Shown one piece after another: positions 7,226-39,698 of a DNA stretch of 39,698 bases. A model generated the notes under the pieces. It did not search any database, had not been told where the DNA came from, and saw nothing but the letters and a program-made list of their open reading frames with translations. Source of the stretch: Cochliopodium minus (taxonomy: Eukaryota > Discosea > Himatismenida > Cochliopodiidae). Position 1 is the stretch's first letter. Each line of letters starts with the position of its first letter. The DNA lies in contig JAMYWO010000334.1 in assembly GCA_024220525.1 (NCBI GenBank), positions 1 to 39,698 of the forward strand. The letters run 5' to 3'. Position numbers and translations under genes: made by a program.

Positions 7226-7331
7226 CGACAATGTCCAAAAAAAAATCAAAACCATTTTGAGAACCAATTGAAAAAAATAAACATATAAAAAAAAAAAAGC
7301 AAAAATTTAGAAATCACTAAAAAAGAAAGAA

Positions 7332-11422: not shown

Positions 11423-11883
11423 CAAGTTTCTTTATTTTTTGGAACTTTTCGGTTCAAAATTTTTTGCTTTGTATTTATTGTAATTAAAAAGTTTTTGTAA
11501 TAATTCATGTTTTTTAAAAAAAAAAGATTTAATTTTATTTGTTAAGTTAATTTGAGGAATTCTAAAGATCCAAAAATTAAAATAAAATAATATTCTTCAA
11601 TGAAAAATATTTAAAAGTTCATATTTACAAAATAAATTTGTTTTTGTTATTTTGTATTCAAGATCACATAAGACAATTTCAAACAATCATTTCCTATATT
11701 TTTATTTTATTTTCACTATTATTTTCAATTGTGTTCAGGGAATTAGATTTTTTTTTTAAAAATTAAAAAATATTTATAAATACAAAAAAAAAAAAAAAAA
11801 ATCAGTTTTTTCAGTTCTCTTTATAATAAATATTGCATTGAATTAGATAAGGATCCATTAATTCGAAAGATAGTGGGAATAAG
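11423..11883 (+). other. Intergenic, kinase 5 to kinase 6
   Basis: AT-rich with poly-A/T runs. A TTATTGTAATTAAAAAG word near 11476-11492 is a degraded form of the shared 3' signal. No gene is seen. Confidence 0.55.
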
Positions 11884-12798
11884 ATGATAGGAGAGTATAA
11901 AATAGGAAATATGATTGGACAAGGAGATTCAAATAACGCCAAAACATTCAGTGCCTCCAAATTAAAAGGAAAGAAAAAATATATAGTCAAAATAATCTCT
12001 TATAAGAAAAAACACTCACTGATTAAGAGCAAGGCACTCAGCGAATTAGAGATAATGAAAAAAGTGAAGGATCATGAAGGAATAATAGAATTGGAAGACA
12101 CAGAGTTGATAGATGCACCAAAGGTAGAAAGATTGTGCATCATTACCAAGGCTATGAAGATGGATCTGTCCCAATACCTCGCATCAAAGAAAGGAAAGCT
12201 CCGTGAATCAGTATGCAAGAAGATTTCTCTTCAATTGATCAAGGCCATTGAACATTGTCATCGCAACATGGTGGTTCATCATGATATCAAACTTGAGAAT
12301 ATTGCAATTGATCCCAAGACACAAAAAATAAAGCTCATTGATTTTGGATTCTCCACCATCTCAAATAATGAAACAGAAATCACGAATCAAGATTCGAATT
12401 TTGGTAAGAAATCTTCAAAAAAAAAAATATATATTTTTAAGTTATCAACATCTTTATAATTAAGCAAAATAAATTTTATAACATATTTCCTTTCAATTTT
12501 AGGAACACCACTTTATATTGCTCCAGAAAAATTTTTGATGAAAAAATATGATGGCAGAAAAAGTGATGTATGGAGTTGCGGAGTTTTGATCTACAAGATG
12601 ATGACTAGTTTCTTTCCTTTCGGAGAGGATTCGAAAGAGATTGACGATGTTTATGAGAGTGCATGCAGTGAAAACTTTCCTCCTTTGAAATGTTCCACTA
12701 AATTGAAAGATCTTTTGAAGAAGATGCTCCACAAAGATCCCCAACAAAGATTAACAACCTCTCAAGTATTGGAACATCCATGGTTCTTGAAAAAATAA
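11884..12798 (+). CDS. Protein kinase 6, divergent member (HHD type)
   Basis: Exons 11884-12403 and 12503-12798 encode 271 residues, with the intron at the same codon as in kinases 1-5. The start MIGEYKIGNMIGQGDSNNAK shares the family opening but has a longer glycine loop. The catalytic loop is VHHDIKLENI, so the HRD arginine is histidine here, then DFGFS. The activation segment ends IAPEKF, with a proper APE. It stops straight after HPWFLKK and has no basic Ser/Arg tail. It looks like the oldest or least changed member. Since the HRD arginine is missing here too, its loss came before the array expanded. Confidence 0.9.
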
Positions 12799-12920: not shown

Positions 12921-13597
12921 CTAGTTAGTAATCAATTTATTTTTTAACTTTAATTCAGCATCACCCCATCCTTCTTTCTTCAAACAATAACATACCTCAT
13001 TTTTCATCTCTTCCCCTAACTTAATTATGTTCTTTTCCACAATGAGAGGGATATCCATATCCTCCAAGAAATGTCTCATTGGACCATTATCCTCCAACGT
13101 CTTCCACAAGATGGTATCCAATCCCATCTTATCGAATGCGAGTTTCAACAAGAATAAATGGACATGTATACTTATCTTATTCTTCCAATGGGTATGATGT
13201 AAAATGATACCACATTCTCCCTTTCTTCCTTTTAAAGAAGATATTTCCCAATTATAAAGAAATATAATTTGAAATTTCTCATTTTTAGGTATGAATATAG
13301 AATATTACCGTCTATATTGCTGAAACCGGCTATTCCAATCAAATTACCATTCTCTTTGCAGTACAGATGATATGATTTCCTTTTTCCTTCTTTTTGTAGA
13401 TTGATAATCATCTCCCTTCTTTCCTTTGCTTGATTGATTGACCATCCTCCAACATGAAAATTGGCCAAATTGAGAAGATATTTCATTGTTAAGGTATTTG
13501 ACAATATCTTGCGCATATCTTCATCATCTTTTGGATCACAAACAGCAATATCTCTTAAAATCACATTATTCAATACAATATCTTGTTTGGGATCCAT
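12921..13597 (-). CDS. GNAT-family N-acetyltransferase (RimJ/RimL type)
   Basis: Exons 13309-13597 and 12921-13228 encode 198 residues and end in TAG. The start ATG GAT CCC at 13597 is preferred because the only upstream in-frame extension begins with TTG. The fold is readable: an N-terminal LRDIAVCDPKDDEDM strand-helix, then CKENGNLIGIAGFSNIDG, GECGIILHHTHWKNK (the acetyl-CoA-binding motif A region) and a C-terminal HFLEDM(D) segment. RimJ/RimL relatives acetylate protein N-termini, amino groups of small molecules or antibiotics; the substrate here cannot be told. It is transcribed away from the nucleotidyltransferase-like gene across about 180 nt. Its 5' end is duplicated at 1935-2000. The 3' end faces the end of kinase 6 with a 122-nt gap. 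Confidence 0.82.
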
Positions 13598-15830
13598 AAA
13601 ATTAAAATATCTCAACCAAATTTTTATTTATTTCGTTCATCAACCCCATATTTGAAAATAATTCAAATGAATTGAAATAATCTAAATTTATTTTCTTTAT
13701 TCCTTCTCCAAAGTGACCTATATTCTTTCAAAATATCATCTTATATAAAAAAAAAAAAAAATTTGTATCCTTCACGAAATGAATCCTGAAAATGATGCAA
13801 TTAAAGAATTGAATTCCAATGATAAAGATTTCACCAAGAAATTCTTTGGAAAATACTGCAAAGGATTTGAAAGAGCAAATCAAATGTTCCTTGAGAGAGT
13901 GAAAATAACAGATTTGTGCATAAATCTTCAAGAATTCTCAAGAAGATCAATGAATTGGTAAATTCAAATCAAAATTAAATCAAATCTCTCCCCTTATTTT
14001 CTTTTTTTGCTTTTATTTAAAAAGGCCAATTTTGAAATTGGGAAGATTTGAAAGAAACAATGAGAAATTCAAATTTGTTAATACATTGATTGGTTTGGAT
14101 GTTGAAGATATAAGCATCCCTGATGAAATCTATTCATTATTGATGAATAATGAGAATATAATTTTGGCAGGTGGAGCAGTATTGGATTCATTGATAGGAT
14201 TCAAAGTAAAAAACAAATAAAATCAAATTATTTCCTTGAATTAATTTAAATTTCTTTTGTTTATTTCTTTATTTATTTTTTCCATTATTTTTTTTGATTT
14301 AATCTTCATTTTACTTTCAATATAAAATAAATCATTTGATTATTTTTATTTTTTAAAGGTGAAAGATTACGATTTATTTTGCATTGGAAGTCGTCCAACA
14401 ACATTCAGGACTGACAGTTGGTTGGAAACATCAAACTCAATAAGTACATTAAACAGAGTAATCATTTATTTTTTTTTTCTTTATTTTCCACTTTCACAAT
14501 TCATCGATTTTAACAATTTATAGTTTCTTTTTAATTTAATATTTCATTGTCTATAATTTTTATTTGAGAATTCATCGATTTTTACAATTAATTATCTTTT
14601 TAATCATTACAAGCCAATGATTCAACTTATCAAGAGAATATATGACAGTCCACAACAAGTGATAGGAGGATTTGATTTGGACAGTTCTAGGTTTTACATG
14701 GATTCTAATCTTAATGTGTTCACCACTTTAACAGGGATTGCCGCATTGATATACAGAATAAATCCCATCAATTTTTGTTGCTACAGTTCCAGTTTTTCGA
14801 AGAGAATCAGAAAGTATCGAAGAAAAGGATTCATTCCTGTTTATGTCAATAAGTCTCATTCTTATCAAGTAATTTTAAACGTTTTATAATCAAATACATT
14901 CATTTTTTGTAATCTACATTTACTTATATTTCAATTTTTGAATTTACTTTTAAAAAACAAGTTATATTTTGACTCTTTTATTTTTTTTTTTGATAAATTT
15001 GATATGAAAGGATGATAATGCTTTGCAATATGGCACCAAGTTCCAAATTAGCAACAGAGAACATATTTATTTTGGTGATTATGATATAAAATTGAGTGGC
15101 AACTCAACCATCCCTCCTGAACGTAAAAAAAACAAAAAAATTAAAAATAACAAAAATTTTTCTTTCACAAACCTTTTTTTTTTAAAAAAAATAATAGATA
15201 AACTGAAACTTCTCAATTTCTGTTGTTTGATGAGAAAAGAATTTGATGGTTTCTGTATTTTGAATGGAATAGTTTTCAAGAAAGAAGATTTCATTGAGTT
15301 TGCAAAACAACAAAGAACAAAAGACTTGAACAGCAAATCTTCTGTGTTAAGACAAGGATATTATAAAACTCAATTCAAGTATTACCTCAAAAGAAACCAT
15401 TTGTTTCCCAAATCTGAAGTTGCAAATAGTTTTGTTGATTTGAGAATACCTGAAGATACTCCAAGAGATTTGATTGCAGAGTATATTTACCAAATGAGAT
15501 TGGAAAACATTGAGAAACATTATTCTTTTTACACTTCGATTGTTGATAAGTTCAGAATCACCAATCCAGGAAGTCAACACACTTCATCTTTTCATCCTGT
15601 TCAATTCAAAACACTTGAAGAACACACCAATTTCAAGAAGAACATTTTCAAAAAAGAGTATATTCCTCATGACAGTTCTTCTCCTGATATCATTGCTTGG
15701 TTGATTTGTTCAAAGAGTCTCAAACTTCCAAAACCTATCGTTTACAATATTTCCACTTTTATTTTTTCATTCAAACTCATTGACATTTTGAATTTGAGGA
15801 ATGGAAACCAAAAGGTTACTATTAATTTCA
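13560..15830. repeat. Right arm of inverted duplication, main part
   Basis: 13560-13745 and about 14460-15830 are reverse-complement copies of 1790-2000 and about 370-1750. The piece between them (about 13750-14460, exons 1-3 of the nucleotidyltransferase-like gene) is present only here. Since only this arm has a whole gene, it is the better model of the ancestral order, and the left arm is a trimmed copy. Confidence 0.88.
13598..13778. promoter_or_regulatory. Divergent promoter of GNAT and nucleotidyltransferase-like genes
   Basis: The 181 nt between the two start codons hold no reading frame. Most of it survives in the left duplication arm (about 1780-1934), including AAAGTGACCTATATTC (GAAAATAGGTCACTTT on the other strand there). 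Such conservation next to two starts suits a shared promoter, but it also follows simply from recent duplication. Confidence 0.45.
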
Positions 15831-17233: not shown

Positions 17234-17514
17234 ATGTCGTTTATTTTCAATGCAAACAATAAAAAGAGAAAAAATGAAGAAGAGATATCAACATCAAAGA
17301 ATACAAAACAAAAGATAATCATAGTAAGATAATTTGGAAATATTATAATAATTTTTATTTAATAGCCGATATATTAAAGGAAAAGCAAATTATGAAAGAT
17401 TGGAACATGTATAGTATGAATAATCATAAATTTTATAGTAATCATTGTATGATGGATCCAGAAAAGATAGCAAAGAAAAGCATATGTATTAAAAATTTGA
17501 GTTATATTCAATAA
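17234..17514 (+). CDS. Possible small two-exon gene, unrecognised
   Basis: An ATG at 17234 opens a lysine-rich stretch (MSFIFNANNKKRKNEEEIS...). A good donor (GTAAG) follows at 17324 and an acceptor ending TTAAAG near 17379. Spliced in phase, it continues with a Met/Asn-rich peptide ending NLSYIQ and TAA at 17512-17514, about 75 residues in all. A more obvious acceptor (TTTAATAG) would break the frame at once. The lysine-rich start could be a nuclear signal, but nothing here is recognised. It lies between two minus-strand genes and could be chance. Confidence 0.3.
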
Positions 17515-17524
17515 AATAAATTAA

Positions 17525-17825
17525 TTAAAGTATTTATTTGTTTTTTGTGGTATGAAAAAAAAAGAAGATCAGTTAGGGTTTATAATGTACTCAATAAATT
17601 TGTCCTTTCCACTAGTAACAATTTCCCCTTCTTTAGCAAATTTCTTAGAGAGCCATCTGTCAACTTTAAAGTTGTATTCGTTTCCACTAAGTTGATCGAT
17701 AACTTGAGCTGATTCACAATTCCATTGTCCACTCAAAAGTTTTAATGCTGTTGCAAGTTTTATGGAGGTGATTGTTCCAACATCCTTCACATCAATCACA
17801 AAAACATCTTTTCAAAAAAAATTTT
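17525..17825. repeat. Right arm of inverted duplication, PLAT-tail part
   Basis: Reverse complement of 1-310: the last PLAT exon, its acceptor and about 45 nt of 3' flank. Homology stops just past the gene end, where this arm goes on to the small gene and the glycosyltransferase, while the left arm goes straight to the nucleotidyltransferase-like copy. Confidence 0.88.
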
Positions 17826-20800
17826 TATTTTTTATTTTTTATTTTTTATTTTTTATTTTTTATTTTTATTTTTACCTTTTTTGGCTCTTTCAAATTTATT
17901 GACATTTTGTGAGTATAAGAGCTCTGTTCTCTCTGTCTCCCCTTTATTTCCAACAAGTGTGACATAAACAGCAGAGTCTGTACCTGCTCCCATGATGTCT
18001 CCTGTCTTCAAAATCACAGAGTCTTTAAAAAAAGAAGTTAAAAATAATTAAAACATCAAAAATAAAAAAAATAATGAAAAAGTTACATGAATTGGTTGGT
18101 GTTGATTTTGGTTCGAGTTCCCTATCAAAATTTTATTATAAATTTTTTAAAATTTTAAATTTGAAAATGAGTTTATATATTTTTTTTTTTCACCTGACAA
18201 TCTTTTTGTCATCTTCATCATCTGCGAGCCAACGTCCGCAAGGAAATTGCCAACGTTGTTTGGTATTGGTGTTGATCACATAAATTTTGTTCAAAAACCA
18301 TCCTGGTCCTATTCCTGTGTTGTCATGTCTTCATTTTTTTTAATTTTAAAAATATTTTTTAATTTGTTAATTTAGTTTAATATAATTTTTTTAATTTATT
18401 TCTTTTAATTTAAATTATTTTTACCCAACAGTAAGTGATTTGAGCTCACCTAAGTCTGTAGTTTCAAATTGGAAGTGATCTACTCTTCCTCTTTCAAAGA
18501 TTCCTTTCCCGTCCAATTTCACTCCATTTATTTTGTTTTTGTCTCCAACAACATGAAGGTAAACATTTGCATCAGTTCCTTTTGAAAAAAAAATTAGATA
18601 ATTAATAAAAAAAAATGAAAATAAAATTTGAACATAATATTAATTTAAAATCAAACAAAATTTTTTTGTTTTTATTTTTTACCAGCTCCTTTTTCTACAC
18701 CAGTAATTATTACGACTTTGTAAATGATGACATCATCCCCAGGTTTAGTGTCAGTGGTGATTTCTCTTTGTATCTTTTTGTCACCTGACTTTGCATCGAA
18801 CCATTGTTTTACAATGAAGTTGGTTACCTTTGAAATGGCAGTGTTTTCAACTTTGACACTTTCCAAGAACCATGCACTTCCAACACCTGAGTTGTCATGT
18901 CCAATTCTAATTCTCTTGATTTCTCCAATATCTACACATTCAATGGAGAATTCATCAATTTGGCTTCTTTCAAAGTCATTCGCAGCTGAATCGAGGTTGT
19001 GTACTCCTGTCTTTCCTGTTTCTCCAAATAATTGGATGAACACATTTGCGTCTGTTCCTGCTCCTCTACAATCTCCTGTTTTGACAGAGATTTTGTATTT
19101 GATTGATTTGACTGATTCCTTTCCCTCTTCAGAAGATGCTATTTCATGATCCAATCCATTTTCTTTGTCGATCCATTTCGAAAAGTTAAAGTAGTACAAA
19201 TGTTTGGTTGTCATATCTGTTATCTTCACTTTGTCCAAGAACCATGATCCTCCAATTCCAGTATTGTCATGTCCAACTTGGATCTTCAAAAGTTTTCCAA
19301 GATCAATCGCATCAATTCCAAAGATATCTGTTTTGTTTCTTTCAAAATTGTTTCCTGGTCCATCCAAAATATGTCTTCCTGAGTTTCCATTTTCTCCATA
19401 AATTTCGATGTAAACATTTGAATCTGTTCCTGCTCCTCTAATATCTCCTGTTTTAACTTCAACTTCGTATGTTTTGACAGGAAGTAAAGGTTTTCCTTGT
19501 TCATCAGATGCTGAAAATTCTCTGATCAAATTGTTTGAGTCCAACCAAACTCCTCCTGTTGGAAAATAGATTGTCTTTTTGGAATCTTCAACATAAATTT
19601 GGATTGATTCAGGCAACCATGCTCCTCCAATTCCTCTGTTATCTGTTCTCATTCTAACTTTGCTCAATTCTCCCAAAGAAATAGAAGCAACTGTGAAAAC
19701 ATCAGTTTGTGCTTTTTCAAAATTATTTTGAGAATTATCAAGTAGAAACTCATTGCTTTCTCCTTCTTTTCCTGTTATCACAATGTAAATATTTGCATCT
19801 GTTCCTGCTCCTGGTCTATCTGCTGTTTTGATTGTGATTTTATAGTCAATAAGAGGTAAATAAGTTGTTGAATCTTGTTCTGTTGCTTTCAATTCTCTGC
19901 TAGTTCTCTTGTCATCTTCTGTTGATGAAAGCCAACGTCCACACAAAAAGAACCATTGTCTTCCACTTCCATTCTTGATCAAAACCTTGTCTAAAAACCA
20001 ATCTGATCCCAATCCTTTGTTATCATGTCCAATTTCAATTCTTGAAAGTTCTCCCAAATCAACACANNNNNNNNNNNNNNNNNNNNNNNNNNNNNNNNNN
20101 NNNNNNNNNNNNNNNNNNNNNNNNNNNNNNNNNNNNNNNNNNNNNNNNNNNNNNNNNNNNNNNNNNNNNNNNNNNNNNNNNNNNNNNNNNNNNNNNNNNN
20201 NNNNNNNNNNNNNNNNNNNNNNNNNNNNNNNNNNNNNNNNNNNNNNNNNNNNNNNNNNNNNNNNNNNNNNNNNNNNNNNNNNNNNNNNNNNNNNNNNNNN
20301 NNNNNNNNNNNNNNNNNNNNNNNNNNNNNNNNNNNNNNNNNNNNNNNNNNNNNNNNNNNNNNNNNNNNNNNNNNNNNNNNNNNNNNNNNNNNNNNNNNNN
20401 NNNNNNNNNNNNNNNNNNNNNNNNNNNNNNNNNNNNNNNNNNNNNNNNNNNNNNNNNNNNNNNNNNNNNNNNNNNNNNNNNNNNNNNNNNNNNNNNNNNN
20501 NNNNNNNNNNNNNNNNNNNNNNNNNNNNNNNNNNNNNNNNNNNNNNNNNNNNNNNNNNNNNNNNNNNNNNNNNNNNNNNNNNNNNNNNNNNNNNNNNNNN
20601 NNNNNNNNNNNNNNNNNNNNNNNNNNNNNNNNNNNNNNNNNNNNNNNNNNNNNNNNNNNNNNNNNNNNNNNNNNNNNNNNNNNNNNNNNNNNNNNNNNNN
20701 NNNNNNNNNNNNNNNNNNNNNNNNNNNNNNNNNNNNNNNNNNNNNNNNNNNNNNNNNNNNNNNNNNNNNNNNNNNNNNNNNNNNNNNNNNNNNNNNNNNN

Positions 20801-23538
20801 NNNNNNNNNNNNNNNNNNNNNNNNNNNNNNNNNNNNNNNNNNNNNNNNTATCTCCAGTAAATACTGATACAGTATAAGTTACCAATGGTTCTGATTTGAT
20901 GTTTTCGTTGTGTGCTGAAATTTCTCTTTCTATCTTTCCATCTTCTTCATCTTTTGCAAACCAATGTCCACTTGGAAAAAAGTAAGAGTTGTTGTTCGAA
21001 AGATTTGTGATTTTAATTGTTTCCAAAAACCATCCAGGTCCTATTCCTTTGTTATCATGTCCAACTCTGATCTTTTTCAATTCACCCAAATCAGCACATT
21101 CAATCCCAAATGAGTCTGTTTTTGCTCTTTCAAAGTTATTTCCTTTTCCATCCAAATTCTTTTGACCTGTTTTCCCACTTTCACCATGAATCTCAATGTA
21201 AACATTTGCATCTGTTCCTGCACCTCTTCTGTCTCCTGTTGTAACTTCAATTTGATATGTCACAAGTTTTCCATAGCTTTCTCTGTTTGTATCTTCTGCA
21301 ACTATTTCTCTCACAATCAATCCATCATCTTCTGAGGAATCAAGCCAACGACCACAAATAAAAAAGTATTGTTTTTGTGTTACTTGGTTGGTGATTGCAA
21401 CTTTGTCCAAAAACCATCCAGGTCCAATTCCAGAATTATCATGTCCGATTCTGATTTTCTTCAATTCTCCCAAATCAATTGATTTCACCATGAACTCATC
21501 TCTCTTATTTCTTTCAAAGTTGTTGTCACTGTTGTCCAACTTGACTTGTTTTGTTTTTCTTTCTTCTTCACCATGTATTTCGATGAAAACATTTGCATCT
21601 GTTCCTGCTCCCCACCTGTCTCCTGTAAATACAACAACTTTGTATGAAACTGCAGTTAAAGGAGTATCATTTGATGGAACTAATTCTCTTTCGATCAATC
21701 CATCATCTTCATTTTTAGCAAACCAACGTGAAATTGGGAAAAACCATTCTCTATTCTTTGAATCATTGATTGTGATTGATTCTGCCATCCAACCAGGTCC
21801 CAATCCACTGTTATCATGTCCAACTATTATTTTTGTGATATTTCCCAGATCGAGGCAAGATATTTCGAACTTGTCTTCTTTTCCACTTTCAAAATTATTT
21901 TCAGAGTTATCCAAGAATTTTTTACTTGAGGTCGTTTGATTTACTTCATTTTTTCCAAATATGGTGATATAAACGTTTGCATCTGTTCCTGCTCCTCTCA
22001 AGTTCATTGTTTTCACAGAAATAGAATAAGTTAGAACTTCCCTTGGAGGCAACTCAGTTGGAACAAGAACTCTTTCTGTCTTTTGGTCATCAATTTTATT
22101 GGATAGCCAAACACCACAGTTAAAGTTCACTGTGTTTCCTGTTTTCTCATTTCTAACCAAAAATTTTAATGGAAGCCAATCAGGAGAGATACCAGCACAA
22201 TCAGATTTGACAACCAACTTGGTTAGATCTCCTAAATCCTTTTCAGACTTTAATTTGAATTTGTCTACTTTCGCACGAGTAAACTGTTCTGGTGATCCTT
22301 CAAGTCTCATAAATTGAGATTCCCCAGTTTCTCCAATGATGTTAAGATGAATATTCGAGGATGTAGAATTTCCCTTGATATCTGCAGTATGCACTTCAAC
22401 ATAGTAAGTTACTTTGTCTGACATTCCCACTCCTTCTGTTGCTTGGAGAGTTCTCTCTAATATTCCCCCAAATTTTTTGTCCTTTGCAAACCATTCATTA
22501 CACTCAAAAAAGTATTCTCCTTTTCCCTCAACAAGAACTATTCATATTTATAGTTTTAATTTTGTGTTAAAATAAAGATTTTGAATCGATTTTTACTGAT
22601 TATTTTGTTCAAATGCCATTCCGAAAATAATCCTTTTGCATCTTGTCCTACATTGAGCGTTTTGAGAATACCTATATCTTCTGATTCAAGTGTGAAATAA
22701 TCAATGTTTCCCCTCTCGAATGCTTTGAATCTTTTATCAGAATTGAGTTGTCTTTTTCCTGTTGATCCTTTTGTTCCCTGAATATCAATAAAGATATTTG
22801 CATCTTTGAAAGATTTAAAGGTTAAAGATTTTTTATTCTTTTATTATTCTTTCACCTGTTCCTGCATATTCGATATCACTTGTATATACAGTCACCTTAT
22901 ATCTCAATACTTCTTTTGTTGGGGTCAATTCTCTTTCCACTTTCTTATCTTCTTTGGCTATTTTTGTTTATTGTATAAATTATGATATATTGAAGATATT
23001 CGAAATTGAAATTTTACATGAATCTAGCCATCTATTACAATTGAATTCCCATGTTTTAGATGTTGTTACATTTCTCACAGTCACAGTTGCTAAAAACCTT
23101 GACAAATTATATAAAGGTTATTTAATTTGATAAGACTCATTCCATCTTATTTTTACCATCCTGCTCCCCATCCAGAATTGTCATGTCCAATTATTAATGA
23201 TTGTAAATCTCCAAGATCTTGGCATGAAAATTCCCTTTCTTCAATAGATGCTCTTTCAAAATATTTCTTTCCAGAAAGCAATTTCTGAACACCAGATTGA
23301 CCTTTATCTCCCTTCAAATTTATGTAGATCAAAGCATCTTGAATAAAATTTTTGAGAATAACATTAAATAAATGTCCTTTATTTAAATTAAATTTGAAAG
23401 ATGATACCTGTTCCTGCTTCTCTCACATCACTAAATTCATTTTAAAGGTAAAATATTTGAGAAGAAAAATTATGCTTGGTTTTTGAATATTAAAATTTTA
23501 AACCCTGTAACAATTGATAATTTATATTTGGTTGACAT
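17569..23538 (-). CDS. Giant tandem PLAT/LH2-domain protein, LOXHD1-like
   Basis: Twelve exons read in phase to about 1730 residues including the gap: 23504-23538, 23408-23430, 23157-23337, 23018-23097, 22856-22957, 22597-22803, 18683-22537, 18425-18578, 18194-18328, 18087-18121, 17876-18022, 17569-17807. The protein is essentially nothing but PLAT domains, at least 13, with a period near 129 residues. Each shows the pattern TGD..GAGTDANVYI.I.G, then F(E)R...D.F, DLGEL..I.IGHDN.G.GPGWFL and a W(F/L) near RELV. PLAT beta-sandwiches bind membranes, lipids or proteins, often with calcium; multi-PLAT LOXHD1 couples membrane to cytoskeleton in hair-cell stereocilia. There is no signal peptide (MSTKYKLSIVTGD), so it is probably cytosolic. 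The domain run is broken by an assembly gap at 20067-20848. Confidence 0.9.
17819..17877. repeat. TTTTTTA heptamer microsatellite in PLAT intron
   Basis: About seven near-perfect copies of a T-rich heptamer (TTTTTTA) lie at the end of the last PLAT intron. On the coding strand this reads A-rich right after the donor. The left arm begins inside the same intron and shows the acceptor side, so only the outer part could be compared. Confidence 0.7.
20067..20848. other. Assembly gap (782 N) inside the PLAT repeats
   Basis: Unknown bases replace the end of one PLAT domain and part or all of others. The reading frame on the two sides agrees if the gap length is taken as written. That length (261 codons) fits neither 1 nor 2 whole repeat units between the flanking TGD and DLGEL motifs (expected about 177 or 306 codons). 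The size is probably an estimate, or the gap includes an unusual unit. Confidence 0.95.
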
Positions 23539-23619: not shown

Positions 23620-25196
23620 TTAATTAATCATTGATTTTTCAAATTCTGTGACTTCGTCAATAATAGAAATAGCTTTTTGTTGAAGAATGACCAGTGCTCT
23701 TTTAAAGATTTCTTTGGGATGAATAATACCAGTGCTTTCAATTGAAACTAAAAATAAGAAAAAGTTTAGAAAATCATTTTTTTTTGTTTTTATAATTTTA
23801 TAATTTTAAAAACAAGTTTCAGGTTTGCTTTTTTCGTTTCATATGCCCTGATGTGAAAAGGGCTACAAATGATAGCGCAGAGTTCATCATTTTTGTTTTT
23901 TTTTTATATATTTGATTTTAAATGTTTTTTACAAGTAAAATGATTTTTGACCCTAGATAATCTAATTCTTTCTTGCCATTCTTTTGGTCTGATACATTCC
24001 CTGCATACAGTGCAATTTTGAGGTCTGGATACAACTGCGACAGAATCCTCTATGTCGAATACACCCATAGGACATATATTGACAAGCTCTTCTGCCTTTT
24101 TTCCCTTTACTTGTTCTAAAATTTCGATTTTAGGCTTCAATCTGTAGAAGGCAGTGGATACAGGGCTCCATTTTGCATGTTCTTTTCCATTGCCTTTGAT
24201 TGCATGGCATTCAACTTCAATGCATTGACCTACAAGAAAAAATTTAAAGTTAATTGAAATATAAAAATTTTATTTTTTTATTTACCAGGCTTTAATTTAG
24301 CAATCACAATGTCATTATGAACAGTCCTCGGATAATCTTTATCTAGATTTTCTAATTGTTCTCCTTGTGGTGTCCATATCAGTTGATCTGTTTTGACCAA
24401 ATCATTGATGATTTCTCCTTTTTCATTTTTATAACATTTTACATTCAGTCTGAATATAAGAGTATCTTCGGTAGTTGGTTCATCTGGAAGGAAGATTTTT
24501 TTAAATCAAGTTTTTTTTTTATTAATATTATTTTTATAAATTTTTATATTATTTATTTTCAATTTTTCTTATATTTTTATCCGTTACCTTTATTTTCTCT
24601 ATTCTCAAAATTTTCTGGATCTGCATAAATTGGAATTAATCCCAATCTATGTGCTAATAATTCATCAGGAATGATAGAGGTGTTATTATTGAAATAAACA
24701 GTCTCGATCGCCATTGTTGGTACTTCCGATAGCAATATTCTTCTTAATGCATTTGCTACTGGTGCTTCAATACCTATTATGTCGAATACCATTCTGCTTT
24801 CTTTCTTATCGTCAGGTTCCATAGAGAGAATATTTATTTTCATTTTGTTCTTGAAATCTTTCAAGCTGAATGAATTATCTATGCCAAGTGAATTGAATAT
24901 CGAACTGGAATAAGTTGACATCTATCATAATGTAGCAATTTAATTGGGATATTATAAATAATTGAGATTTTCTCAAGATATCCTTTTGGATATTTTCTTA
25001 CATTCTGTACACCTGATTCATTAATTAATATTTGATCTTTAAATATCTTGAGATTGGGTGGCATTTTCGATACATTTTCATCTTCTTCCATATTATCATC
25101 TTCCATCTCTCTCTCATTATTTCCCTTTAACTTTACATCCCAAAAGTTTTCTTTTCTTTCTCTATTCTTGTCTGATCTTTTTTTATCGTTACTCAT
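23620..25196 (-). CDS. RPAC1: RNA polymerase I/III subunit RPAC1 (AC40)
   Basis: Five exons encode 383 residues: 25002-25196, 24588-24921, 24286-24483, 23933-24229, 23620-23747. The alpha-like subunit is clear throughout: GVQNMSTYSSSIF, then IGIEAPVANALRRILLSEVP, TMAIETVYFNNNTSIIPDE, LAHRLGLIPIYADPENFE, DTLIFRLNVKC, HAKWSPVSTAFYRL and HFTFSIESTG. With AC19 it forms the assembly platform of Pol I and Pol III, corresponding to the bacterial alpha dimer, in the nucleolus and nucleus. The N-terminus is a charged extension of ~55 residues rich in Lys, Asp and Glu, somewhat longer than in animals. A CPMG...CTVCREC cysteine cluster in the dimerisation region recalls the iron-sulfur-type insert of archaeal D subunits. 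The last intron carries a snoRNA candidate. Confidence 0.93.
23808..23900 (-). ncRNA. Candidate C/D-box snoRNA in RPAC1 intron
   Basis: On the RPAC1 sense strand the 185-nt last intron contains a perfect C box ATGATGA (23884-23890) and a D box CTGA (23819-23822), 72 nt from one to the other. They are bracketed by a perfect 8-bp terminal stem: AAAAACAA (23893-23900) with TTGTTTTT (23808-23815). The interior is markedly richer in G and C than the rest of the intron and contains a small GCCC...GGGC hairpin. Internal boxes are weak: TATGAAA as C' and CAGG as D'. Size, box order and terminal stem all fit a 2'-O-methylation guide processed from the spliced intron. I could not assign an rRNA target with confidence. 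Confidence 0.6.
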
Positions 25197-25419: not shown

Positions 25420-28400
25420 TTAATTAAAGTTTTCCAACGATTTGATGTTTGCCAAAGCGTTCACAAATTGTTCAATAAGCTTTTTCTCTTTGGAAATGTT
25501 GGAAGATTGATTTTTCTTTATAAATTCAATGAGAGAATCAAGATTTTCAAAAAGAAGTTGAGAGAGAGAAGGGAGGATTTCTGTATTAATTTCTTTGTTC
25601 AAGCAAAAAGAGTTGTGAGAATGTCCAAATTGGATTGAAGTGGTGAAAGTATCAAAAAAATGAGAAATTTTGCTATTAAATTTGGAAATCAATTCATTAA
25701 AGGGTAGAAAAATAGGAGTGCTTTTGAATTCTGTTCCACTAAAAATATGATTCAAATAATCTGAAAAAAATTTGAGAGATTCAAAGACCAGTTTTCCATT
25801 GGGTTCCTTGTCAGTAATTTTGAAATCTTTGGGGGTCAAAAAGGCAGGAGAAAAAAAGATTTGCCAAGCAACACTTGAAGTAATGTTAGAAATGTTGATT
25901 TTTTTGTTACCTGAAAACTTTTTGTGGAGCTCATCTTTAACAAGCTTCAAAATTTCTTTGAAGTGGGAAGGAAAAGATTGAGCAGAAGAAAGAATTTTGT
26001 TGAGAATATTTTCAGTGATTTTCTTGATATTTTCAGTGGCTTGTTTATTGGAAGAATAATGCCAATTATCAGAAGGAGATTTATCAATAATTTCCAAAAT
26101 AAAAGGCTTCAAGGTAGTCTGCAAATAGCTGAAAGCGAGTTGAGATAAAACTTTGGAAAGAAAAGAAAACTTCCCTTCAAACAAAACTTGTTCCACATTT
26201 TCATGAGCAACTTGTTCGGAAACCATGTAAATTTCAAAACGTAGGAATTTGGTAAGAAGAGGGAAAAACTTTTGTTTTGCTTCCAATATTTTGGTGGAAG
26301 AAAGAGCAATTTGAGGGTTGCTAGAAGTAGAAATCGCCCTCGAAAAAAAGTCAAAATCACTCAAAACTTCAATGAGAGTATCATATTTGCTTTTTTGTCT
26401 GAGTTCTACTGTTTTTTTAGGAAGATAATTGAGCTCTTGGGTTTTGAGGGCGGCAACACATTCGAGCTTGGATTGTTGTATCGAACGGCGTACTACATTG
26501 TGTTTTTTGGGGTCAGCAAGGTGAGATGTTTCGAGAGCTTTCTTAATTGATTTGACTGTTGAGAATTTGGTGTTAGAATCCAACACTGCAAAGGTGAATA
26601 AATCATTCAACGTACGAATTTGAAAACCATCTTTTTCGTAACTAGAGTTACCATCCAATTCATCTAGGAAAGCACCGCTCAAACTTATAGCAGAAGAAAA
26701 AGTGTATTTTTTCTTATCAAACTTGGTTTTGATGAGGAGATCATTGAAAAGAAAGAAATGATACTTGCTTCTACTCTTTGGTTTCTTTGGATCTTCTATT
26801 TGGTACAGTTCTGTTTGCTCCAAGAAAACTCTCCCTGGAATTCCCAACGGAATGATATTTGTAGGGAGCTCCTCGATCCTCTCTTCAATATCTCTTACTA
26901 CTTGAGAATCTTTTGCGGTTAATTGATAGACTTTGACACCTTCTATTGCTACATCCACTTTACTGATAGCATCTTTCAAGAAGATATAATCCAAATGTTC
27001 TTCGGAAGTACATTTCAACAACTCTGTCATCAGTGTTTTGTAATGGAACAATCTCTTGCAAGGTAGCTCCAACAAACTCAACAAGGTGGTGGATTTACTT
27101 TCGGACTGAAGTCTTTGCAAAACAGTGAACAAATGGATTTTTGTTTTTTGAAGCCTTTTTAGATAATAGACTGCTTCGAAATAATCTTTACTATATTGTT
27201 CATACAACAAAAATATAGGTCCCATTTTAGCGAAAATATCTCCAACGTTGGGACTCAAAAATCTGTCATAAATTCTCTGCTTATATTCTTGAAGGACAGA
27301 GTTGTTCAACATGTAAACAGTCTCCAAAGACCCAAAGATCATGTTGATATCTTGTTCACTAATATTAGTGGATGGTTTTTGGGAAAGATCTTGCAAAGGA
27401 ACAATGTATTTCTATAAATTAAAAAAAATTTCGAAAGATTTTTTCATTTTTCATTTTTTTTTTTTACCTCGTAGATAACTTTAAGGTTGGAGAGGTATGC
27501 TTCTTGTGAAGAATAAATTTCTTTGATGAATTTCCATCTTGTTCTTTCTACGGTTGAAGCATCGCTCTTGAGATATTCTTGTATAACTGGGTATATCAAA
27601 GCTTCTTGAGACTTATATTTTCTGTAAATCAAGAATTTGCGTACTGCTTTTTGTATGATGATGGCCGTTTTAGCTTCTTTATTTTGGGAGCTAAAAAGGA
27701 AATGTTTTAAATTTGATTGGTAAAGAATCAGTTTTTTTTATTTGGATTGAATTTGAAAAAAAAAAAAAAATTAATCCTTCAATCATTTGATAAAATTGAA
27801 TAGAAGAGAGATATTAAAAAAAGATTTTTACTTTACTGAAACTATCTTTTTTTCTCTTTCATATAGATTACTTTCTTCTTGTGCAATCTCCTTTCTCATC
27901 ATCATCACTTCAAATTTCAATCTATTCAATTGATCTTGCTTCAATTGCATCATCTTTTGCTTCTCCAATGTCTTCTCCTCCAATTTTTTGACGTTAGGGT
28001 CTTTAAAATCAACAGTGATCTTTGAATTGGGTTTTGGGAGCTCTCCTTGTTTCAATACTGTTTTTTTTGGAGCAGTTTTGACAGGATTCAATTGTTTTGG
28101 TGGCTGTTTTGTTATTGGATTTTTTTTGACTGGTGGTGGCAATTCTCTCTTCTCTGTCTGTTTATTTGGGTGTTGTGGTTGTTTGATTGGAGTATTTGAT
28201 TGTTGATTAGTTATTGAAGGACCATCTATGAAAATAAATCAAGATATTTTGATTTATATCCAAAAATATTAGATAACAAATAAACAAGACATTATATTAT
28301 TATGATCGAGAATTTGATCCCATCAAATAAAATAAATCATATGTTTGGTTATATTCAAAATTTTATCCACAAATCATTTTTATATCTCTCTTAAATAAAT

Positions 28401-28621
28401 AAATATTTACCATTTACAATTGTATTGGTTGATATATTGTTCCCACTAATCTTATTTTTTGCAATAAGTTTCTTTATCTCTGATCTCTTCTCTTCAAGGG
28501 TATCCAATTCATCTAACAATTGATTTCTTTCATTTTTTTTGGCACTAATCAATTTCAATTCTATATCTTGGATTTGTTGTTTCAAATCTGAGCTTTGTTT
28601 TTCCAAATCATCCACTTGCAT
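25420..28621 (-). CDS. IQ-RhoGEF (DH-PH) fused to a degenerate RasGAP domain
   Basis: Four exons encode 939 residues: 28411-28621, 27832-28225, 27468-27690, 25420-27411. In order: an N-terminal coiled coil (about 1-70, VDDLEKQSSDLKQQIQDIEL), a Pro/Gln/Lys-rich linker with a second coiled coil, and an IQ motif near 207-228 (AIIIQKAVRKFLIYRKYK). Next comes a DH domain from about 250 (RWKFIKEIYSSQEAYLSNL, then YIVPLQDL), then a PH domain about 465-600 (GRVFLEQTELYQ, HFFLFNDLLIKTK). The last ~300 residues match RasGAP: LQTTLKPFILEII, NILNKILSSAQSFP, FFSPAFLTPKDF, IFLPFNELI. The finger motif LFRGN is LFEGK here (E688), and FLR is WQI (792-794), so Ras GTPase activation is unlikely. DH-PH should activate a Rho/Rac GTPase at membranes, with IQ offering calmodulin control. 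The start ATG is the first in frame. Confidence 0.85.
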
Positions 28622-28845: not shown

Positions 28846-31036
28846 TTAATTATTAGTTTCAACAGGGATAAACACTTTGTTACCTCTATTATGCTTTTCG
28901 TAATATTTTTTCTGTATTCTTTCTTTTTTGGAAAGCTTGGTTTTGGAAGGAGCTTGATAATTAGGATCATAGGGGTTGGTGATCTTTTCAGTATATGTGG
29001 GAGGTTTGACATAACTAGATTTAAGTTCTTTGGGGGTGACTCTTTTTTTTTCTTTAGGAGCATGGTTAATAGAACCATTGCTGATGTTACTGCTTTTTTG
29101 TTTCATCAATACTTTGAGTTTCTCAGAAGAAACGAGTTTCTCAAGCGCTTGTCCTTCTTGAGGATCAAAGTTAGGGAACATATCTTCTTTGACTTCCTTA
29201 GAGTTTTCGTCTTTGATAACAGGTTTGGTGACATATCTCAAAACACCATTCACATAATCTTTCAAAATATAACGAGCAGCTCTGGCTTGATCAGGGGTAC
29301 CACTCTTTGTCATGAAACCTCTAATGTACCCATAAGCGTTCAAGAGCTCAACAGGAGTAGGATTTTTGATGATGGGTTGATCATTCTCGTCTCTTTCGAC
29401 AGGCAAAATGATTCCATAAAGACCCTCCAAAAGATCTTTTTTGATTCTTTGGCATACGAGAGAAATAGGTTCGAAGAAGTCTCTGAGTTGATCTATTGGC
29501 AATAGACCATTGCACACCATCTCTGCTTTTGTTGCAACAAAATTAGGAAATACCAACCCGGGACAATCACACAAAATGACGTTTTCATCAAGAATTAATG
29601 TTTGAAAGTGTTTAGTTTTTCCGGGAGTACTACTGACTGTTACTTTCTTAGATCCTACTAATGCATTGATAGTACTTGATTTTCCTACGTTAGGATATCC
29701 GACCATTCCGATTGTAATTTTTCTGTCAACAACTAAAATTTACGAATATAAAATTATTTTTTAAAAATAAAATATTATAAAAGAATTTACTTTTTGATTC
29801 GTTCCTCAATACAGAAAAAAATTTGATGAGTTGTCTTGTACCCCTTGTTTTTAAAAAATTGAAAAAGAAAAGAAAGTTATTTTTTAAAAAAGAATTACAT
29901 GATATGGTGAGAACCGATGATAGATAAGTCAAAAGGTTCCTCTTTACTCTCGGTAGTAGTAGGTTTTTCTTTTTTGAGTTTATTGATTTCTGAAACCAAA
30001 GGATCTTCGTTGTTCTCATCATCACGCTCAACCTCTTCTTCAATTGGATCCTCTTTTGCTTGTTTGTTTAATTCAATTTCAGTAAGAGCCGAGAAGAAGA
30101 CGAATGAGATATTTATAGTGTTATAATATCTCGCCCAGTCTTTACGTTGGTTTTCAGTTAGAAGATCCGCTTTGTTGACCACCAAGAAACATTTTTTCTC
30201 TTCTCCTTTTTCTTTCACATATTTCTCCAAATCTTCACATCTGTATAATTCTGGATTTCTTGAATCTACAATTTGAACGAGAATGTCCGATAATTCAACT
30301 ACTCTCCACAATTGTCTTTTAAAAATTTAATTGGATTGAGGTATAAATTGATGATTAAAAAGGTATATTTATTAATCCAATCATATCTTGTCAAATAATT
30401 TGTTTGGGGATTTTAATTCAGTGAATTTTATGTTTATAACGAATATTTTTTTAGAAAAGGAATTATTTTGGATGATTATGATGTAAGGATTATTAAATTT
30501 TGATACTTTTTTTTTGAAAAGAATAGTATCAAAAAGTTTAATTACCTCCAAACTTGCATATTCTTCTCGAAAGGGGTCATCATGAGATGTTCATTCGTAT
30601 CCAATTCTGCCAAAGTCTTTCTCCAACTTGCAAAAGCTTCTTTCTCCTTTCTATGAAGCTCCTCTGCCAACATATCTCTGGTCCATGCAGGTCTTCTTGG
30701 AATAGTGACGAAATTATAATTCTCCAATCTTGCTTTGATTTGTTCTTTGCTCAATTTATCGCTCACTTGAAACGATTCAGAATTAATTACAATCTTATAC
30801 TCTTTCTCTGAATGAAAATTTTCATCTCTCAATTCTGCCATTGACATCAATTCATCCAGATCATTGTTTTCTGTTATAGATTTCAATTGTGAGGCCATTA
30901 TATTGCTTTCATCCAAATCTGTATGTTGCAAAGCATGATTTGCTTTTTCGGTATTATATGTTCTTCTCATTTGTACTTTTTTCTTTCTTTTGTCATTTAC
31001 CAATGATGATCCTAAATGTTGTTTGTTTTTCTTCAT
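28846..31036 (-). CDS. LSG1: Large subunit GTPase 1 (60S ribosome export factor)
   Basis: Four exons encode 615 residues: 30546-31036, 29899-30315, 29791-29843, 28846-29732. It is a circularly permuted GTPase of the YlqF/YawG type. G4 NKAD (211-214) comes before G1 GYPNVGKS (332-339), the PGKTKHFQT region and G3 DCPG (376-379). The N-terminal block IPRRPAWT...TPFEKNMQVWRQLWRVVELSD and the LPIDQLRDF / RGFMTKSGTPDQARAARYILKDYV block are specific for LSG1. It releases the export adaptor Nmd3 from cytoplasmic 60S subunits. Between G4 and G1 is an acidic insert (about residues 238-300, EEEVERDDENNEDP), and the C-terminus is basic. A 53-nt exon (29791-29843) and a 230-nt first intron are notable. 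Transcription diverges from the coiled-coil gene at 31312. Confidence 0.94.
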
Positions 31037-34968: not shown

Positions 34969-37900
34969 TTATGGAAGGAAAATAGGAGAAAAAATTTGAG
35001 ATAAAAAGGAAGAAGTCATTTTGCTTTGATTTCCGTGTTGAGCAAGGGAATAAAAATGAGAAAAAATGAAAGCAGCAGTACTTCTTCTAACAATAGGGAG
35101 TTCAGAAACCAATTTTCTACATTGTCTGATGGAATGTTCGTTATCTATCTCAATTTCGTTAAAGTTGGTGGACAAAACAGAGTTGCCAAGTTGGTTGAAA
35201 TAATGTTTAACAACAGATGCAAGAAGGAAAGGATCTTTAACATTTTCGAGTTGCAATTTGAAGCCATTGTTAGAGTAAGTAACAATTTCGTTAACTTTGG
35301 TAGGTTTATAGTTTACTTTGGAGTAGAGATCTTTCTTGTTCAAATATTTATTTTCTATTTGTTTGCAAGGCTCAGTTACGAGTTGGGAGACTTCTTTGTA
35401 GGAAACTTGAATTTTTTTGAAGATGGAATTGAAATTATCAATCATGAACTTGATAATATCTGCTTTTCTGTTTCTTTTTTCTTTTGCATTCACCCCAGAT
35501 TGAAGATCATCAATCAAGTTGTACAAACGGTTGTTTTCACCTTTAAAATAAAAGAGTCTGAGTTTCTTTTGTTTCTTTTCGAGCAAGTCTTCCAAGTTGT
35601 GTCTTGCAACACGACGGTTTCTTCTCAAAATTTTGACAGTTTCGAAAAGCTCGTTATCTCTGTAAAGTTCTTTGTTTAACTGAGCAATCTTTCCTTGCAA
35701 AACATGCATTCTTTGAGGGTTCTCGGTATATTTCTCAGGGTAGTCAATGACACGGAGTAATTTGAGTCTCATTTTCTCGAAATAAACTTCTGTTTCAGTT
35801 TTTGGTTCATATGCTGTTCCGAGTTTGTTTTCTGCTTTGACCCAAACACCTTTAGCTTCTTTGAGTTGACTTTTATACTTCAATAATCTGCTTTGATATT
35901 GTTTAACTAGTTTTTGTTCAGGCTTTCCATGTTTGTCAGAAAGAAGCAACTCATTGAGCTCGTTGTAAATTTCGTTCAAGTCAAGTTTAAAGTTTCTATA
36001 ACGTTGTTCCAAGAATTTGTTGTCCTCATGTTCTTCAGTAAGGTTCTTAAAGTTTGTTCTTCTTCCCTTTCTGTAATAAAGCTCTCTAAGCTGCATCTCC
36101 CAGATAAGTTGGTCTTTGGTTCTGCGTGGATAATCAGCTTGAGGTTGAATGACTACAGGTTTGGAGTGATCTTTTTCTGTTTGTAAGATTGTTACAACTT
36201 CTATCATGCTCTCGTCTCCTCCAAGTCTAGTGTTAGGACGTCCTCCAGTTGTTACTTTAGATCTTGGTGGATCTTCAGTAAGGTGTATACGCGGAGGTGG
36301 TTGAATAAAGTCGAGTGCTCTCTCGATAGGACCGAGTGCCTCTCCAAGGTTAACACGATTATCTCCCTTGTCATCATCTTGGTGCAAATCATCATAGTTC
36401 TTGAGTTCAGTTAAAAACTCAAATTGATCTTTTCTGTCTACCAATGAGAGAGCAACATCCTTTGGATTTAGTTCAGTGAGCAACTTGAAATCTCTTTTGC
36501 AAGCATTGAGTGCTTTTCTGATTCTGCTATCATTATCAAGATTGGAGAGATCTCTTTCAATAACTCTTGGATCAACAGCATGAACGAGATTGGCATACTT
36601 GTTTCCGTCGTAATATTCTTTAGCATCAAGGACATCGTTCACTTTTCTGTTAAATGGTTCTAATTTCTTGTTTACCCATCTTTGAAGTTCACTGATTTCG
36701 TGTAATCTTTTCATTTCATTCAAAAGTTTTCTGAGATGATCCTTGTTTTCTTCAGCTCTTTTAACTTTTGTAGGGTCACACTCATGACGTATCTTGAGTT
36801 GCTCAGATGCACATCTAAGAACATCGCTAATTAATTCTTGAGCATTCTTAGGCATGTTTTTAGTATCAAATTCAGTAATACGTGAAATCGTATGAGCCAA
36901 AACTTCTCCACTTGTATAATCGAGTTTATTGAGCTTGTATTTGTTTGGAAGATTAACTTTTTCGTGTTGATTCAACCACTTGATGAGATTAGCATCTTCA
37001 ATCTTTTTCTTCATCTCCTTGAGGTATTTTCTGAGGAGAGAAGGATCTACATTCCCGGTAACTACATCATTAGGGTCCAACTTTGCAGGATATTTATCTC
37101 CAAGAATTCTTTTTCCCTCTGCCAAAGCATTCATTACCAAAGAACGAGAACTGTGATTCACAAGTCCATCAACATTCATAGAATTAGGATCAATAAGATG
37201 GATGATTTGAGATAAATGAGTACCATTCTCCCAATCAGTTGGCTCGACATAAGTGTGTAACCTAACTGGCCCATACTTTTTGAGCTGTTCCTTGTAAAAG
37301 TTCATCAATTCATCATCAGGTGATTGCAATGAGCTCATTGGATCCAAATCAGTGACAGGGGGTGTCTTATTTTGGATCAATTTATAGTTGAGCTTTGGCA
37401 GAGGAGCCATGGTGAGCTTGTAAGATTTTTGTGGCTCTTCTTCTTTTGGCTTTAGTACGGGCTCAAGGTTAACCACCTTTTTTTTCTCGTTTGCGAGTTC
37501 TTTAGACACAAGTTTTAATTCTCCTGCTTTGTCTATCAACTGGTTTCCGATTTTGATGTTTTCCTCTTCCAACAAGAGTCTTTTTCTTTCTTCCTCTTCT
37601 CTCATCCTTCTTTCTCTTTCAAGTTGTTCCTGCATAGCCTTGAGCATACTCTCCATACCTTCTTTGTTTCTTTCATTTTGTTCTTTCACCAATCTCATCT
37701 CTTCTTTAATCTTTTCCAAAGCTTCATTGGTCATGTCTTTGCTTGTTTCTTCGGATGTATCAGAAACAAGATCAGAGTAGTTATCAATCACTACCTTGGA
37801 TGATTTATCTCTGAATACACCAAAGTAGGTCAAAAGATCACGAGCACCACACAAATCATCTTGAATTGCATTTGCTGATACAATCAAAGGTACTCCTAAA

Positions 37901-39066
37901 GTATTCTTTGCTGCATTGAGTGCGATTTCCAAAAGATTAGGATCATTATTGATTGTATCTTCTGATATTGTATCTGGAACTTTAGAATTTACAAGATATG
38001 CCAATACACGACCATCTTTGAAGCTATTAAAAAATGATTTGATCAATTTGATACATTACTTTATATTTTATAAATTACTCGTCGTTTCTTAATCCCCTGT
38101 TTTCATCCAATCTTGGACATTTATTTCCATGAATTTCATTAGATTTGTTGATCCATTCAATCATTTGCTTTTCACTATCCTTTCCTTTATTACCTATTGT
38201 ATTTAAAGAGGTTAATGAAAATTTGAATTATGGAAGTGAGGAAAAAATTCAAAATATTTACCTGATACTCTCAATTGAAATTTTAGAATCAAAGACCAAA
38301 GGAAGCCGAGAATCATAGAAAGATCCTTATGATAATTTTCAGGCAAAAAATCTAATCAATATAAAGTTATTATATGAAAGTTGAAGAATAGAATTAATCA
38401 ATATTTGGGATATTTAGGTGAAATGTTTTCTTATAATATTTATCTTAACTGTTTCAAATTTAAGATGTTTTTAGATGGGTTTATTCTAATATAACGATTT
38501 ATTCTTACTCCATGGTGCTATGGTAACTCTTAGTCCATATTTTTTGAGTTCTTCCAAAGCAATATTGATATTCTCTTTCTTTTGTATTTCTAATTTGGGA
38601 TTCTCATTATGTTTTATGATCACATTTCTTTTGAACTCCTTGCTCAACAATCTTTCAACTAATAATATGAGTGAATGTCCATCTCCAAGTTCTTTTAATG
38701 AATCTATCCCTGCTTGAGGCTCACAGGTCGATAAATACATGTTTATCCAATTTTTGAAAGTCTATCCCAATGAAAAATATTAGATTATTAATCAATATTA
38801 AAGACTGGAATGAATTTTCCAAATTATAAACGATCAAAAATATTTGATAAATTTTCTTTTTGAATGAATTATAGATTATAGAAATAAATCATATTAAATT
38901 TTATATTTCGTCTTTGATTTATAAATTCTTGAAAAAAAAAAAATTATATATATATTTTTCTGCCCGTTTCTATCTTGATTAATTTAAATACCTTCTTTTC
39001 TATTTTAATCTTTTTATCTTCATATTTTAATCCTGTCAATTGTTTTTCAATTTTCTCTCTTTTCAT
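34969..39066 (-). CDS. Multi-calponin-homology protein with C-terminal degenerate RhoGAP
   Basis: Five exons encode 1195 residues: 38992-39066, 38509-38761, 38262-38351, 38079-38193, 34969-38023. After a basic coil, a tandem actin-binding pair of alpha-actinin/filamin type is clear. CH1 (about 25-145) has KKTFKNWINMYLS, LKELGDGHSLILLVERLL and MILGFLWSLILKFQ. CH2 (about 150-250) has QMIEWINKSNE, FKDGRVLAYLVNSKVPD and ARDLLTYFGVFRD. A coiled coil follows (about 270-370). Three weaker CH-like modules come next (about 405-715), each with a W..G..L or YYDGNKYANLVHAVDP pattern, then a helical stretch. The last ~135 residues resemble RhoGAP (KDPFLLASVVKHYFNQLGN, LPIVRRSTAAFIFSHF, NQSKMTSSFLSQIFSPIFLP). 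Where RhoGAP has GIFRVSG, this protein has DLYSKVN (S1079), so the arginine finger is missing. The domain also stops early. It probably crosslinks actin and binds Rho GTPases without activating hydrolysis. Confidence 0.82.
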
Positions 39067-39357
39067 CTCAAATTATGAAAATTATAAAAGATTATCCAAA
39101 TTTTTTTTTTATATTTTATTGAGATCAAAAAAATAAAAAAAAAAAATTATGAGAAATTTTATACTCCTTAAACCATAATTCTATCATCATCAACATTATC
39201 ACCATTATTATTTAATTTAAAAGTTTTAAATATTTCTCTTCCAATATTAAACTTTATTTCAAAAATTTCTTGAATCAATAAAAATCATTTTAACAACAAA
39301 ATGTAAAAATCCAAAATTTTTATTTACAAATAATTTATACAATTAAAATAATCAAAA
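39067..39357. other. Intergenic, CH protein 5' end to kinase 7 3' end
   Basis: A 291-nt AT-rich spacer. A reverse-strand TTGTATAAATTATTTG word around 39327-39342 may be the kinase 7 3' signal in changed form. Nothing else is seen. Confidence 0.5.
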
Positions 39358-39698
39358 TTAGTTTATAGAAGAGAATACATTGAAAGATCTGTTTCTTGAT
39401 CCCCCAAATAACTTATCTACAAGAAATCTTTTATTTGGTTTTGTCTTTTTTTGAGTGAAAAAAGGATGTTGTGAAGCTTCTGAAACTGAAATTCTTTCTT
39501 TAGGTTCTTTTTGCAAAAGAGAATCAACAAGATCAATGAAATTAGGAGAGAAATCGTTTGATAATCTACTATACTCTCTGTATAATATTGCTTCATAGAG
39601 TTCTTTGAGAGTCTTGCAATCTTCTCCAAATGGAAAGAAGCCAGTGACAAGTTTATACATTAAAACTCCACAGCTCCAAGCATCACTTTTTCTTCCAT
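39358..39698 (-). CDS. Protein kinase 7 of the same family (partial, runs off the window)
   Basis: Only the end of the second exon is inside the window, starting at GRKSDAWSCGVLMYKLVTG and running through FFPFGEDCKTLKELYEAILYREY, DLVDSLLQKEPKERISVSEA and the basic tail KRFLVDKLFGGSRNRSFN to a TAA at 39358. It is as close to kinases 2-4 as they are to each other. It lies about 27 kb from the array and on the opposite strand. It may start a second array to the right. Confidence 0.9.
   Translation of the reverse strand, partial: GRKSDAWSCGVLMYKLVTGFFPFGEDCKTLKELYEAILYREYSRLSNDFSPNFIDLVDSLLQKEPKERISVSEASQHPFFTQKKTKPNKRFLVDKLFGGSRNRSFNVFSSIN

Follow-up and report, generated by a model that had tools for sequence, protein, structure and literature searches.

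The window that we analyzed, a 39,698-nucleotide stretch of Cochliopodium minus DNA (contig JAMYWO010000334.1), contains on its minus strand a gene whose predicted product joins a Rho-type exchange factor to a domain of the RasGAP family. The gene runs from 28621 to 25420 in four exons and encodes a product of 939 residues, with the following features.

25420–28621, minus strand: gene; exons 28621–28411, 28225–27832, 27690–27468, and 27411–25420 (stop included); 939 residues.
27606–27677, minus strand: weak IQ motif, residues about 207–230 (Pfam IQ_SCN5A_C, E 0.054; IQ, E 0.32; both under the curated cutoffs).
26953–27527, minus strand: DH (RhoGEF) domain, residues 257–429 (PF00621), split by the intron at 27467–27412.
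27519–27521, minus strand: E259, the glutamate conserved in the first helix of DH; all four other sequences in the alignment have it too.
26932–26934, minus strand: K436, at the site of the asparagine of the last DH helix, opposite N of ECT2 and ARHGEF4.
26605–26817, minus strand: probable PH domain, matched core residues 475–545 (Pfam SOS1_NGEF_PH; IQSEC1 and IQSEC2 chains).
25423–26442, minus strand: RasGAP-like domain, residues about 600–939 (Pfam core 734–815, at 26040–25795).
26170–26184, minus strand: LFEGK, residues 686–690, arginine-finger loop (LFRGN in neurofibromin; R1276 to E688).
25858–25866, minus strand: WQI, residues 792–794, at the FLR site (R1391 to I794).
25759–25761, minus strand: D827, by alignment at the site of neurofibromin K1423, a residue reported to contact Ras (PMC4374526).

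All three introns (185, 141, and 56 bases) have GT and AG at their ends, and their GC content is 0.13–0.18 as compared with 0.29–0.35 for the exons. The third splice, which falls inside the DH domain, is supported by an alignment to ECT2 that spans it without a gap; the first two, which add the N-terminal region, are predicted by the gene model. The original prediction had been made for 25420–27411, which corresponds to the last exon only, the start of the modeled gene lying at 28621. This last exon contains the PH region and the RasGAP domain together with most of DH, and it is free of stops over 663 codons; the longest stop-free run in 300 sequences generated by an order-1 Markov model trained on the same exon was 171 codons. 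Because so much of both halves sits in one open exon, it is unlikely, judging from the sequence, that they are split between separate transcripts or genes.

The gene is flanked on both sides by reading frames on the same strand. Directly downstream, two open reading frames at 24577–25196 resemble a gene for an RNA polymerase subunit (Pfam RNA_pol_L, E 3.2e-10, at 24577–24921). On the other side, adjacent reading frames at 28846–31036 resemble a single gene for a ribosome-biogenesis GTPase, which we take to be LSG1-like; Pfam support within this interval is confined to 28846–29706 (MMR_HSR1, E 1.9e-15). Farther away, also on the minus strand, are a long reading frame of repeated PLAT/LH2 stretches at 18672–22430 (four in the 477 residues examined), which is interrupted by 782 N at 20067–20848, and a reading frame at 34969–38046 in which Pfam recognizes three stretches of CH (E 1e-19) as well as a RhoGAP domain (E 4.7e-15). 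In two of five inspected alignments of this RhoGAP domain, both to PI3K p85, the LYR of p85 lies opposite LYS. The arginine of LYR is presumably the arginine finger of p85, and this RhoGAP domain, too, seems by its sequence to have no arginine finger.

Elsewhere in the window, six kinase-like reading frames lie in a row on the plus strand at 4463–12459; five have HQDIK and one (near 12277) has HHDIK at the place where kinases usually have HRD. One of the six was run against Pfam and matched Pkinase at E 9.4e-53. Five are 74–86% alike in DNA, the sixth has no match over 150 bases, and a partial further copy lies inverted at the end of the window (39347–39698). Inverted repeats at 397–1768 and 14444–15813 share 97.0% identity over 1377 aligned bases and contain a reading frame for which Pfam gave no match (E up to 0.01). 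There are also shorter inverted matches, of 1–330 with 17500–17826 and of 1766–2001 with 13529–13767, and the arrangement suggests that the inverted matches are parts of a larger duplicated block.

Returning to the RhoGEF-RasGAP gene, a Pfam search with the whole protein at E up to 10 returned seven families, of which RhoGEF and RasGAP alone scored past their cutoffs. PF00621 recognized the DH domain at 100.7 bits (E 1.5e-28; cutoff 27.6), and the best of the 47 PDB sequences that matched the domain at E up to 0.001 was ECT2 (9e-17). The DH-PH module of the original prediction is strong in its DH part but weak in its PH part, the Pfam match to SOS1_NGEF_PH (E 0.031, 15 bits) falling under the cutoff of 27.7. 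The same region matched chains of IQSEC1 and IQSEC2 at E 0.0005–0.004 (IQSEC1 at 0.0005), in a part that we take to be their PH domain. The weak IQ motif that precedes the DH domain is possibly a calmodulin-binding site.

Whether this module would turn on Rho, as had been proposed, is less sure. In favor of the proposal, the DH domain scores well and E259 is kept, but the asparagine of the last DH helix aligns with K436. The lysine lay opposite asparagine in three MAFFT modes and in the alignments made by HMMER itself (the latter judged by eye), in a column to which only ECT2 and ARHGEF4 extend among the four other aligned DH sequences. With a 90-residue query, the five alignments that we inspected stopped at residues 430–433, short of K436; a match to P-Rex2 (E 0.25) does extend to it, in a region where similarity fades and the register is not certain. 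The P-Rex1 substitution N233A is reported to be catalytically inactive by itself (PMC12518277), and N1232 of Tiam1 is reported to hydrogen-bond R66 of Rac1 in a simulated complex (PMC7884829); we infer that both residues occupy the site of the last-helix asparagine. Because this catalytic asparagine aligns with K436 even though E259 is kept, we predict exchange activity as likely but not assured.

The C-terminal half is related to RasGAPs by several measures. PF00616 matched residues 734–815 at 52.1 bits (E 9.8e-14; cutoff 28.3), which is the outcome of a profile search that the original prediction had proposed as a check; with PF00621 scoring in the same frame and in a shared exon, the claimed fusion of a RhoGEF to a RasGAP-family domain holds. 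A phmmer search of PDB with the C-terminal 360 residues at E up to 10 found seven distinct sequences, every one of them IQGAP2, IQGAP1, or neurofibromin, with IQGAP2 at the top (entry 5cjp, E 3.2e-10) and IQGAP1 second. The real sequence scored 33.6 bits against the neurofibromin (NF1) segment and 41.4 bits against the IQGAP2 segment, as compared with 8.5 and 7.7 bits for the best shuffles (500 shuffles in each case, of which 425 and 414, respectively, received a score). A profile built from the protein together with neurofibromin and IQGAP segments found 15 sequences in PDB (E up to 10), of which nine were neurofibromin or IQGAP, as expected by construction, and three were p120GAP (best E 9.5e-31); another was SynGAP (E 4.1e-22), and the remaining pair, both chains from microsomal triglyceride transfer protein (E near 4), we dismissed as chance matches. 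Structures predicted by AlphaFold2 from single-sequence input were mostly helical and were too poor for a comparison of folds (mean pLDDT 39.1 for 360 residues and 38.1 for 300).

What the domain has lost is seen in the alignment to neurofibromin, in which LFRGN stands over LFEGK and FLRFINPA over WQIFFSPA, with three MAFFT modes in agreement; for the finger loop the comparison is with neurofibromin alone, the IQGAP segments in the alignment stopping short of it. We reproduced exactly the numbering given originally (LFEGK at 686–690 with E688, WQI at 792–794, and 106 residues from E688 to I794), and we likewise find both RasGAP arginines replaced, R1276 by E688 and R1391 by I794. At 16 neurofibromin positions picked from known motifs and from cited papers, seven residues are kept (L1274, F1275, G1277, P1395, A1396, P1400, and K1419, the last as K823) and nine are changed (R1276E, N1278K, F1389W, L1390Q, R1391I, N1394S, K1423D, Q1426N, and N1430S, with L1390 corresponding to Q793 and N1430 to S834). 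The losses thus go beyond the two motifs first singled out, with serines in place of N1394 and N1430 and with D827 in place of K1423, which in neurofibromin is reported to lie on the GAP surface and to be essential for GAP activity (PMC4374526). Given that both arginines are lost, the domain is very probably devoid of GAP catalysis on Ras. It may nonetheless have GAP activity toward a GTPase other than Ras, since GAPs of other GTPases are reported to employ other catalytic residues (PMC9408373).

Searches for relatives covered viral, bacterial, archaeal, and phage DNA and so say little about protists. With the 663-residue protein of the last exon, nine stretches in viral contigs and 88 in bacterial and archaeal genome contigs fitted the pattern, none of which was confirmed, and tblastn of phages at E up to 0.01 found no relatives. 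Viral contigs likewise yielded no confirmed relative among the 60 stretches that fitted the pattern of the RasGAP alignment or the 43 that fitted that of the DH alignment. There was no match in NCBIfam, a prokaryote library, and none in Rfam at gathering thresholds for the whole window.

How might a RasGAP-like domain that does not hydrolyze GTP serve an exchange factor? The original prediction was of a direct relay by which Ras turns on Rho: bound to Ras-GTP, the dead domain would recruit the DH-PH unit or activate it. The part of this proposal that concerns loss of hydrolysis agrees with the absence of the arginines, but the part that concerns reading of Ras-GTP is harder to sustain. The RasGAP homology is clear, the equivalent of K1419 is retained, and, as reported for Dictyostelium, finger mutants of C2GAP1 and C2GAP2 still bind Ras (PMC10806400), while finger mutants of NF1 and RGBARG localize to cups as the wild-type proteins do (PMC10806400, PMC7416115). 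Set against this are the replacements at K1423, L1390, R1391, and N1430 and the report that the R205A, L352G-R353A, and N392A mutants of Dictyostelium IqgC fail to interact with RasG (PMC10806400, which mentions beside them another report in which association with Ras was impaired). N392 is probably the equivalent of N1430, since each lies 39 residues past the FLR arginine (R353 in IqgC and R1391 in neurofibromin). Moreover, IQGAP domains are reported not to bind Ras (PMC12871552) even though, by alignment, they retain the arginine of FLR and the lysine at K1423, and at the other end of the relay K436 stands in the DH domain. Since none of the finger, the two FLR positions, and the K1423 contact is conserved, binding of Ras-GTP in the canonical manner appears less likely than had been assumed, and we consider the relay as a whole quite improbable. 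It is also unlikely, if a little less so, that the domain takes part in feedback on Rho by binding GTPases of the Rac/Cdc42 type, as in IQGAP, the same protein then holding the product of its own DH domain. The nearest PDB matches, IQGAP2 (5cjp, E 3.2e-10) and then IQGAP1, point in this direction, 5cjp being a complex with Cdc42 according to a figure legend (PMC9408373), and the IQGAPs as well as Dictyostelium DGAP1 and GAPA are reported to bind GTPases of the Rho family while having no GAP activity (PMC8305917). But IQGAP1 retains the YYR arginine and the K1423 lysine, both of which are absent here, no RGCt domain follows the RasGAP-like domain, and the affinity of the IQGAP GAP-related domain for Cdc42 is described as very low and independent of nucleotide (PMC9408373). 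The broader idea that the RasGAP fold has been made into a noncatalytic GTPase sensor, such that one active GTPase, of either the Ras or the Rho type, would control activation of Rho within the same polypeptide, fares somewhat better but is doubtful.

A different possibility is that the DH domain is as noncatalytic as the RasGAP domain and that the protein is a scaffold. K436 argues for this if its site is indeed that of P-Rex1 N233, whose replacement by alanine abolishes activity (PMC12518277), but the overall score of the DH domain and the retention of E259 argue against it, as does the uncertain register of K436, which only two aligned sequences reach and around which similarity fades; we give it the same low rating as feedback on Rho. 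Least probable by far is an artefact of the gene model, with the RasGAP half derived from another transcript or the locus a pseudogene. In its favor, the gene is known from a single locus in genomic sequence; against it, one exon stays open for 663 codons from DH through to RasGAP, the two halves share a reading frame in which each is recognized, and the flanks and introns are far richer in AT than the exon.

The reading that we favor, at a probability of about one half, is that the product is a Rho exchange factor of the Dbl family in which a possible IQ motif, a DH domain, and a PH domain are followed by a RasGAP-fold domain that would not promote GTP hydrolysis and would act as a noncatalytic regulatory or interaction module. 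We prefer it because the domain is recognizable even though the catalytic arginine, the stabilizing arginine, and the Ras-contacting lysine have all been replaced. Such a module would restrain or place the DH-PH unit, either by contact within the molecule or by way of a partner protein; its control of that unit would not operate by canonical Ras-GTP binding. IQGAP1 is described as a pseudo-RASGAP that has threonine at the finger position and is inactive even when arginine is inserted there (PMC9408373). In Dictyostelium RGBARG, the protein is reported to spread over the cup when its RasGAP domain is removed, and addition of either the RhoGEF or the RasGAP domain blocks recruitment of the BAR domain to the membrane, which the authors attribute to intramolecular interactions (PMC7416115). 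If the favored reading is correct, a RasGAP fold has been retained for a role that does not involve hydrolysis, a parallel to IQGAP in an otherwise dissimilar protein.

Among known proteins, the DH domain has its best PDB matches in the DH-PH units of ECT2 and ARHGEF4, neither of which, to our knowledge, has a RasGAP domain. The RasGAP domain of neurofibromin can be aligned along some 240 residues that take in both motifs, but it is active and retains its catalytic residues, unlike the RasGAP-like half described here; we know of no DH-PH unit in neurofibromin. The nearest PDB relative of that half by sequence is the GAP-related domain of IQGAP, which is also related to RasGAPs and has no GAP activity, as we predict for the half described here; IQGAPs have no DH-PH unit that we know of. 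We rejected membership in the IQGAP family because the protein has no RGCt and none of the IQGAP motifs: E688 stands in place of the finger threonine, WQI in place of YYR, and D827 in place of the K1423 lysine (PMC12871552, PMC9408373), and RGCt was not among the seven Pfam families found at E up to 10 in a protein that ends at residue 939. GAPVD1, likewise, joins a RasGAP domain to an exchange-factor domain, but this is a Vps9 domain, which is reported to act on Rab5 and not on Rho (PMC6032885).

The original prediction had called the pairing of DH-PH with RasGAP uncommon. The remark is a fair one, but there is a published precedent in RGBARG (DDB_G0269934) of Dictyostelium discoideum, a 225-kDa protein with RCC1, RhoGEF, BAR, and RasGAP domains (PMC7416115); in the same source the classical RasGAPs are described, apparently with mammals in mind, as mostly multidomain and as having no member that also has a RhoGEF domain. 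RGBARG was the only protein with both RhoGEF and RasGAP that a phrase search of the open-access PMC literature returned; in that literature we found no RhoGEF joined to a RasGAP lacking both arginines, nothing on Anaeramoeba with RhoGEF, and nothing that combined inactive RasGAP, arginine finger, and pseudoGAP. The likeness between the two proteins is that RhoGEF and RasGAP occur together in one amoeba protein. The RasGAP domain of RGBARG is reported to act on both Ras and Rap, and an R1792K mutant localizes normally but does not rescue, whereas the activity of its GEF domain was not clear to the authors (PMC7416115). The Cochliopodium protein, in contrast to RGBARG with its RCC1 and BAR domains and its active Ras/Rap GAP with R1792, has lost the arginines and has neither RCC1 nor BAR among the seven Pfam families found at E up to 10; with these two domains missing, we rejected the idea that it is an RGBARG orthologue. 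RGBARG shows that an amoeba can combine the shutting off of Ras with Rac signaling in a single protein. With the pairing of RhoGEF and RasGAP thus already described, what varies here is the RasGAP half, which is very probably dead; such a variation would be a natural case in which to test how a RasGAP fold becomes a binding or regulatory module.
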